Assembly (NCBI GenBank): GCA_011033025.1
Contig: WFMF01000026.1
Location: 62,001-126,000, forward strand
From: Beroe forskalii
Lineage: Eukaryota > Ctenophora > Nuda > Beroida > Beroidae
DNA length: 64,000 bases
Reading direction: 5' to 3'
Part shown: in pieces, positions 46,501 to 49,500 of the stretch
Layout of the letters: every line of letters starts with the position of its first letter
How positions within the stretch are numbered: the stretch's first letter is position 1
The notes under the pieces: model-generated
What the model was told of the DNA's origin: nothing
What the model saw: the letters and a program-made list of their open reading frames with translations, nothing else
The model's database searches: none
Program-made: the position numbers and the translations under genes

Positions 46501-49500
46501 ACCAACCCTATGTCGTTGACACCACTTAGCACCATATCGAGCACGACGAAAAATGTTACGTGGCACGTGCACATACCAAATCGATGACATTGAAAGCACA
46601 CAAATTTATTACGATGAAAAGAGCCCCTTTCTTTCTCTCTCATTACATGCATCATTCATTCAAAAACTGCGTAATTGTTATTACAAATTAGAATGAGAAC
46701 TACAATTCCATGCAGCAGCCGGCCAGGGTGCATGGCATTGCATGGCATGCGTGCATGCAATGTAACGTACTCGCGTGCGCGCGGATACCATCGCTTATTG
46801 ACAATGCGTGCTACGAAAAGTCGCGTTGTTTTTGCCACAGTGTCACACTAATTTAGCACAATAAGCTAATTAGCCGCAGCAATCTCACGAACGAGATTTG
46901 TTTGCAACCCACCTCTGAAATCTTCTTCAGATCTTTTTCTGCCTGCGTAGTAGACTGGTCGAAGAAGTACTTCTGTGCAGCTTTGCCCGCCAAGCCTCTG
47001 CATAGCAAGTCCAGCAGGTGCTGTTTCGAGGATAGCAAGTCTTTTCTGGGCGCGAACTGGGCAAAGCCAAGCGGACTTTGCAATCGAGACACAATCGACA
47101 TCTTGAGAACTGGAGTTAATGTGAAAGAAATAAGCGATTTATGGACGACTACAAACTACAAAGATACTATTCACGTTCGGATAATTACAATTATATTGAG
47201 CACTGGGTATCCTACCTTTTCCTAATTTATTAAGTGTTAAGGGTGAAGAGATAGCTTGTCTGACGTCGTCAGACTCTGCGAGTCGTGGCGCGCGCGAGGG
47301 GGTCAGGCAACGCCTGACAAGAGATAGCTACTATAGAGCTTAACTATGCAAAGCGTGAACCAGAACAAAGGGGAGAAGAGTTAAGAAAAGAATTCACAAT
47401 TTCACTACCAGCAGTTTTTTTCTCCTGTTTACGTGTTGTGTGTGCATTTTCAGGGGTTATGAATATAAGATATAATAACATGCCCCCAAATAATTTCATG
47501 AGGAACTAAAGATTCAAGATATCATGAGAAAAACTGACGTGGGGAGAAGGAAAGAGAGAAGGCCTTGCCCGGCGATGTAGTATGCTGACAACTTCAACTC
47601 TTCTTCAGTAATGGTAGGGTGCTGTCTTTCTAGCCCTGTAGGGCCGATGCTTTCAGTACAATAATATAATATAGATTTATTTTTCTCTTTGTTTCCTTGC
47701 CAATTGAGGGATTAAATAATAACGAATGGGAGAGTGTGATCTAATATATTGTTTTGAAGCCCTCAGGGGTTTTCAATCAATCAATCAGATTCGTTCACTG
47801 AATTGTACACTCATCAGTGTCAAATAAGCGCTACAGAATTGACTACTGTAAGAGTTAAGACTTAAGACGCTACATTTAAATTCACTATCTAGTCTTTCAA
47901 TAAAAAGTACCTGCAATAACCCGTTCCAGTGCTATCTCAAAGTCTGATTCCTTGACCTCTGAGCTGCCTATCCTGGCAGCATAGATTGCAGCTTCGTTGC
48001 AAATATTAGCAATTTGAGCACCACTATAACCGGGAGAAGGGAGGGAAGTAAGGAGGGAGGGAAGTAAGGAGGGAGGAAAGTAAGGAGGGGGAGGAAACGC
48101 TTAAGTAAGAATTAGTTTTCAACTGATTTTCATCCGAAGAAAATGGATACTGTATAAGTATTCACGTGGAATCTCTAATTCAATTCACAGCAATTATCTA
48201 AACAATTCTAAAACAGGGGCCCCTTTTCGCAGAAAGGAGGATATAGTCGAAATTCGAGTGCGAAATTGCTATCAACTGTTGACTTGAGTCGTGTGTTCCA
48301 CTTAAGTCGATGTTCTACTTGAGACTGTATAGTACCCTTGAGTAACACTTGATAATGTGCCCCAGAGTAACACTTGAGACTGTATAGAACTCCAGAGTAA
48401 CACTTGATAATGTATAGTACCCCAGAGTAACACTTGATAATGTGCCCCAGTACCCCACCCACCGGGAGTGCAGGCAGCTAGTCTGGCTGAGAAGGTCCCC
48501 TCTCCCCCTGACTTCTCTACGATGTTCTTAGCTAGCGCTAACTTCTTCATGTGGATCTGGAATACCTCCTCTCTTTCTATCTCAGTGGGGTCCCCGATGT
48601 GTATCTGAGGGAGGTGTGACGTCAGAGATGGGAAATTCATGAATACATGACGCCTCAATACACTACATAAGGGAAGTTTGTAAAAGTGTCATCGGTAGAG
48701 ATGAGCAATTGATGACGTTTTATAATAATTCTTCTAAGTCCTGTCAGTTCCTGGTATCAGAGGGCCTTAAACTTAAAAGGACAATGAATTGCCAATAAAT
48801 TAATAATTTACATGTAATCACTTAATCACTTACTCGCTTAAACTTAAGTGAGTTTCAAGAACAAGTTGAACTACCTTCCTGTCCACTTGTGTGACCAGGC
48901 CATATCTAGAACAAGTTATTAAACTAACTTACTGTCCAATTTTCAATCGACCACGCCGTATTTAGAACAAATTAACCAACCTTCCTGTCCAAGCGACCAG
49001 GGCGCGTGATGGCCGAGTCCAAGATGTCGTCTCGGTTGGTAGCACCCACGATGAAGATCTCATCCCTATCGTTAATGCCGTCCAACTCTACAAGGAGCTG
49101 AGGAAAGAGACAAGTTGATTGGGAGTTATTAACTCGAACTCTGGAAGTATAACAGAGGGCTAGAGTGTACAGTATTATAACAGTTAAGGGACGGGACAGG
49201 GGGTGAGGTCGAATGTCGATTCTTTTTGCTGTTCCTAATAATAAAGTAGAAAACTAGTTTTTTACATCATGCTCCCATGAAAAATATTGTTCTTGACCGA
49301 AGATATGAATTTTAAAATCACGAGTTTGCCTGCAATTATAGTCAACTAATCAAGGACATTATCGAGGTCAATAGTCAGTGCCAAAGACACTACCTGGGAC
49401 TGAGCGTCCAGAATAACATACTTTCTCAATAACACAAGTACTCTGAACTTATGCCATTCAAAAATAGCACAATGCTTATCACATTTCACCTGGTTGAGGG

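Follow-up and report, generated by a model that had tools for sequence, protein, structure and literature searches.

Locus and gene model

The window analysed here, a stretch of 64,000 nucleotides from the ctenophore Beroe forskalii (assembly GCA_011033025.1, contig WFMF01000026.1, positions 62,001 to 126,000, forward strand), contains on its minus strand a paraplegin-like gene that extends over 11.5 kb, from 51991 to 40534. Its 11 exons join into 1683 nt, i.e., 560 codons, with no stop codon and no frameshift (Table 1). In a preliminary description, made from the letters of the window, this gene was taken for an m-AAA protease homologue, with AFG3L2 as reference, in which all the catalytic zinc-site residues were replaced and the ATPase motifs kept. 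Exon 8, which bears this site, is read from the minus strand, a stop being present in frame 1 of the plus strand at 47536–47635. From the comparisons presented below, the gene would be a ctenophore paraplegin (SPG7) turned into a soluble pseudo-protease, with a probability of about 0.85 when the choice between mixing with AFG3L2 and forming a ring of its own is set aside.

Table 1. Exons and motifs of the paraplegin-like gene (positions in the window)
Feature	Position	Strand	Remarks
Exon 1	51731..51991	-	Start codon; basic, presequence-like N-terminus from MYRLPRKRR, without transmembrane helix; donor GT; matches N-termini of P0002-P0004
Exon 2	50335..50473	-	Start of AAA domain (VTFADVGG) to GPPG of Walker A; GT-AG
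Exon 3	49946..50076	-	NGKT of Walker A and pore loop 1; GT-AG
Pore loop 1 segment	49973..49996	-	IEKIGGLG (AFG3L2 type MEMFVGVG); KIGGLG in 7/7 family rows
Exon 4	49490..49627	-	Walker B LDEID and glycine-rich loop; GT-AG
Exon 5	48981..49097	-	Sensor TNR and arginine fingers RPGRLDR; GT-AG
Exon 6	48463..48604	-	End of AAA domain, lid; 3' boundary uncertain
Exon 7	47911..48030	-	AAA lid; acceptor at the position set by relatives ends CCCG; a canonical, in-frame start is available at 48023
Exon 8	47539..47635	-	Start of M41 domain with degenerate zinc site; in-frame join to exon 7
YIAGQ replacing HEAGH	47565..47579	-	Alignment to AFG3L2 and relatives
Exon 9	46913..47120	-	M41 domain; acceptor fixed by relatives ends TTTCAC, no AG
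Third zinc ligand Asp, kept	46931..46933	-	6/6 rows extending that far
Exon 10	41238..41390	-	Up to DIVQ; GT-AG; identified via relatives
Exon 11	40534..40710	-	To stop codon; acceptor AG

Loss of the zinc site

Exon 8 aligned without a gap (tblastn) to the genome's own AFG3L2 proteins, with AYYIAGQ opposite AYHEAGH, which bears out the spacing of 25 residues from GLE to the motif that had been reported as equal to that of AFG3L2. The first His codon is replaced by TAC (Tyr, 47579–47577), that of the catalytic Glu by ATC (Ile, 47576–47574) and that of the second His by CAA (Gln, 47567–47565). On its own this tblastn match is weak (E about 0.1), and it stands beyond chance because six relatives share the Tyr/Gln replacement. 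The degenerate site is hence real and lies in an in-frame exon. The claim that all zinc-site residues were replaced holds for both His and for Glu, but not for the third ligand, an Asp retained within QAEKDLKK. Instead of the HExxH plus Asp of an active M41 zinc protease, the protein thus combines YIAGQ with this Asp. It belongs to M41 by descent (Pfam PF01434, 127.1 bits vs a cut-off of 29.9), and its score against the FtsH equivalog TIGR01241 was 482.3 bits, below the curated cut-off of 600, vs 620–671.6 for three relatives with HExxH; this low score is partly due to the missing N-terminal part. HE..H is absent from all three minus-strand frames of 40500–52100, so that no HExxH exon lies elsewhere within the gene, which would have spoken against the preliminary description, or was missed between exons 8 and 9. 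Any other missing exon at that place was ruled out by the relatives, which show the junction LP[TNS]LTP[VT]LK.

Relatives sharing the same lesion

Relatives were drawn from three protein searches, each limited to its 120 best matches out of about 8000 scored, which gave 344 proteins together. Among these matches, six public proteins (P0001–P0005 and P0260) group in one family with the window gene; its closest named relative among the matches listed, P0004 from the ctenophore Bolinopsis microptera, is annotated 'paraplegin-like'. The preliminary description had proposed a search for relatives with the same type of site, and these six carry it. The motif reads YYIAGQ in the window protein and P0002–P0004, YYISAQ in P0001, YYEAGQ in P0005 and YYEASQ in P0260. 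Therefore, Tyr and Gln occupy the two His positions in 7/7 members, and the catalytic Glu has become Ile in five and is still Glu in two (P0005 and P0260). The third-ligand Asp is present in all six rows that reach it; the P0004 model ends earlier, and the near-identical P0003 extends further and has it. The pattern HE.[GAS]H is absent from 14 of the 344 proteins, namely the six family members, P0076, P0006, P0241, P0288, P0291, P0293, P0300 and P0322; in P0076, which belongs to the SPG7 clade described below, HEAGR stands in place of HEAGH.

The contigs bearing P0002 and P0003 measure 1853 and 1935 bases, with uninterrupted frames of 546 and 542 codons, vs 11.5 kb for the window gene, and from their length look like transcripts. 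In a tree of AAA columns, from which the zinc site was left out, P0260 (a long branch) and then P0005 branched first (94/82 and 94/87, below the starred level). Both keep the Glu, so that the two His were probably lost ahead of the change from Glu to Ile. Because several relatives share the same change, the gene is probably a conserved, non-cutting part of a machine rather than a broken gene, and a conserved family lacking both protease activity and anchor is very strongly favoured.

Placement among paralogues and copies in the genome

The tree comprised 44 rows, i.e., 41 hand-chosen proteins of the 344, the window model and two AFG3L2 proteins of the same genome, compared over 250 AAA columns; the SPG7 rows were six named vertebrates, P0007 and one sponge paraplegin (P0302). 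The protease-dead family formed a single clade (100/100), which joined the seven SPG7 proteins (six vertebrates and P0007), P0302 and P0076 in a clade supported at 99/93, with P0055 outside it (87/76). The AFG3L2 proteins, including those of ctenophores, formed a separate clade (100/98). AFG3L2 orthology of the window gene is contradicted by this tree, and the choice of AFG3L2 as reference paralogue is corrected accordingly: by its grouping with SPG7 (99/93, with a long-branch warning), the gene would be an SPG7/paraplegin orthologue.

Searches covered the 216-Mb assembly (1134 contigs). The M41 search returned six matches, corresponding to two AFG3L2 genes, three stretches of two genes on contig C606, and the window gene. 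The AFG3L2 genes, on C692 and C1079, are each a single long open frame with intact HEAGH and differ in their N-termini; their closest named relative among the matches listed is P0123 of Mnemiopsis leidyi (72% identity). The C606 genes (83.8–87 kb and 92.4–95.5 kb), which stand outside the tree, are in tandem, YME1L-like by eye, and both have HEAGHA. No second copy of the window gene was found in the genome by searches with exon-9 DNA or P0002, and no canonical or second paraplegin among the best-scored candidates of the M41 and P0002 searches. An AAA match on C363 was rejected as NVL-type by eye (WDDVG, GPPGCGKT), and none of the P0002-search matches outside C314, C692, C1079 and C606 appeared in the M41 search.

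ATPase, pore loop and N-terminus

As claimed earlier, the ATPase motifs are kept in this protease-dead m-AAA relative: GPPGNGKT, DE[IL]D and RxGRLxR, i.e., Walker A, Walker B and the arginine fingers, are intact in 7/7 family rows, and Pfam PF00004 identifies the window protein as an AAA+ ATPase (127.9 bits vs a cut-off of 21.2). The sequence of pore loop 1 is I[ED]KIGGLG in 7/7 rows, with neither Phe nor any other aromatic residue. In AFG3L2, M380 and F381 of this loop contact or encircle the substrate (PMC12994072, in part). A ring of the window protein alone would have zero aromatic residues in pore loop 1, which makes the earlier suggestion of an unfoldase doubtful for such a ring. A loop of the IGGLG type occurs in 7/8 SPG7 rows (VIGGLG), the sponge P0302 having MFAGVG, P0076 MFGGVG and P0055 MFVGVG; being common to vertebrates and ctenophores, IGGLG was either inherited or gained twice.

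The window model and P0002–P0004, on which the N-terminal comparison is based, have 89–92 residues ahead of the AAA domain, where hydropathy over 19 residues peaks at 0.67–0.97, vs 196–298 residues and peaks of 1.7–2.04 in five anchored controls; P0001 (33 residues), P0005 (22 residues) and P0260, which starts inside the AAA domain, are uninformative here. Pfam FtsH_ext was absent at E 0.01 from the window model, P0002, P0005 and P0260, the last two being short, and present in Mnemiopsis AFG3L2 (below the cut-off), frog SPG7 and the sponge paraplegin. A transmembrane exon missed inside intron 1 was ruled out, as P0002–P0004 go straight from the presequence-like stretch to the AAA domain. By hydropathy and Pfam, the two transmembrane helices and the intermembrane-space domain of an m-AAA subunit are lacking; of the earlier reading as an m-AAA homologue without proteolysis, the dead zinc site stands, and the lack of a membrane part is to be added to it. 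The first 60 residues include 10 K/R, 2 D/E and an RRGFHS motif, and look like a mitochondrial presequence.

Comparison with known systems

The window family resembles SPG7/paraplegin in its tree position, IGGLG loop, order of AAA then M41 and presequence-like N-terminus, but differs in having no transmembrane helices, FtsH_ext or zinc His and in having mostly lost the Glu; within SPG7, the sponge MFAGVG departs from the shared loop. It shares with AFG3L2 the fold (6nyy) and the GLE-to-motif spacing, whereas the AFG3L2 of the same genome retains HEAGH, MFVGVG and hydrophobic N-terminal segments. The plastid FtsHi1–5, named as M41 pseudo-peptidases in a 2024 review (PMC11266112, in part), are comparable in that the window protein too is an M41 homologue without HExxH, which is replaced by TEVGV, NEAAM, REAAV and WAAGR in FtsHi1, 2, 4 and 5 according to a table of that review. 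Unlike the window protein, FtsHi proteins belong to plants and algae, are anchored in the chloroplast envelope and have mixed ancestry, most lying among i-AAA relatives (PMC9020784, in part). No paper combining ctenophores with paraplegin, AFG3L2 or FtsH was found by a search that left out most subscription journals and all preprints, Mnemiopsis is absent from the 15 papers listed out of 511 by a broader search, and the parts examined of a Babesia degradome (PMC9965338) do not mention an M41 pseudo-protease.

Proposed function and alternative explanations

The window protein would be imported into the mitochondrial matrix, where peptide cleavage by it should be impossible, and the M41 fold may have been kept since it helps to build the hexamer ring. 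Most likely it would act as a non-catalytic AAA+ subunit mixing with intact AFG3L2, which would bring the zinc sites and the aromatic pore loops; this is modelled on mammalian paraplegin, which needs AFG3L2 to assemble. Yeast without yta10 and yta12 grew again when given AFG3L2 E575Q plus paraplegin, because paraplegin, unable to self-assemble, supplied proteolysis (PMC3192828, in part). Hence, one active subunit type can suffice, and by analogy the reverse mix of dead paraplegin and active AFG3L2 may work as well. A paraplegin deprived of its site could then be tolerated in the presence of intact AFG3L2, as in this genome, which makes the non-catalytic partner the first choice and a free remodelling ring the second. 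Partnership with AFG3L2 is nevertheless put forward tentatively, at slightly under even odds.

The alternative, a soluble AAA+ ring that stands alone in the matrix and remodels proteins, like the plastid FtsHi motors minus their membrane anchor, is conceivable but rated less likely than not: the aromatic residue that touches or encircles substrate in AFG3L2 is missing from pore loop 1 in all seven members, and paraplegin was reported as incapable of self-assembly in the study of yeast cited above. In its wider form, a ctenophore paraplegin turned into an AAA+ machine free in the matrix, with anchor and protease gone, would be an independently arisen animal counterpart of plastid FtsHi, in which both His disappeared before the Glu and the Asp of the third ligand was retained for a new or a structural function; this remains a possible outcome that we hold short of even. 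That the real HExxH exon lies elsewhere or that exon 8 is mis-aligned is, by comparison, highly improbable. No point in favour of such an artefact was found, HE..H is absent from the minus-strand frames of 40500–52100, no second gene copy was found by the M41, exon-9 and P0002 searches, and the relatives carry the same residues, two of them on the transcript-like contigs of 1.85 and 1.94 kb with an unbroken frame.

Several observations weigh against a soluble pseudo-protease derived from paraplegin. GT and AG were found at the positions fixed by relatives in 8/10 introns; introns 6 and 8 end in CG and AC, not AG, at the junctions implied by relatives, and these odd acceptors leave the exact protein of this copy, even its function, uncertain. 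The SPG7 placement comes from 250 columns with long branches, with a warning from the program that long branches meet, and the branching order of the family, vertebrate SPG7, sponge paraplegin and P0076 is not settled. Compared with AAA, M41 is slightly more relaxed here (ratio 0.83) than in the AFG3L2 (0.90) and SPG7 (0.88) sets. Besides, the mitochondrial location is judged from the N-terminus, and we know of no precedent for membrane-free subunits in a membrane-anchored ring, although no search was aimed at one.

The two acceptors are also what would be expected if the window copy were a decaying gene whose relatives keep a working one, which is considered unlikely. Its introns are crowded by a partial exon-2 duplicate and minisatellites, and in a control on the C606 genes, where 13 intron stretches were read by eye, all nine clear junctions were GT or AG and none was clear in the other four. 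Yet the intact coding frame argues against long neutral decay, since decay that hit 2/20 splice dinucleotides should also leave nonsense codons or indels in 1683 bases; as already noted, no stop codon, one of the observations that would have undermined the preliminary description, was found in the joined exons. Moreover, the window branch (0.36, listed as long) is intermediate in length between the branches of two relatives, P0001 (0.29) and P0005 (0.62), and in-frame alternatives are available for both introns. Enumeration gave two in-frame GT–AG options for intron 6, one turning GYSGAQ into GGGAQ, and two GT–AG and two GC–AG options for intron 8, which add or remove residues beside the zinc site and keep YYIAGQ in 4/4. 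Introns 6 and 8 may reflect either unusual or shifted splicing, or a copy starting to decay.

In humans, biallelic mutations of SPG7 lead to spastic paraplegia, and the roles of paraplegin that need its own proteolysis are, in our judgement, hard to separate in models from those in ATPase activity and ring building. If the soluble pseudo-protease is confirmed, a non-cutting, non-membrane animal paraplegin would be a natural separation-of-function experiment and a second route to FtsH pseudo-proteases, alongside plastid FtsHi. It could also be a clue to the mitochondria of ctenophores, which are unusual.

Repeats and neighbouring features

A 16-nt array (CCTTACTTCCCTCCCT, minus strand) at 48038–48089 forms the pyrimidine tract right before exon 7, at the site of the odd acceptor. 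Two minisatellites extend over exon boundaries, one (49613–49786) over the beginning of exon 4 and the other (48858–48992) over the end of exon 5; by eye, their units copy the exon–intron junction, which places copies of the splice sites in tandem. Between exons 9 and 10, a 39-nt minisatellite of about 18 copies (42637–43339) shows long open frames on both strands. The stretch 51149–51491 is a decayed, incomplete copy of exon 2 with its flanks (50232–50547); it lies upstream of that exon, at a distance of about 930 bp, and is 100% identical over 31 nt of coding sequence. Finally, a neighbouring open frame on the minus strand (52779–54521) encodes 580 amino acids with BTB and Jacalin-like domains.
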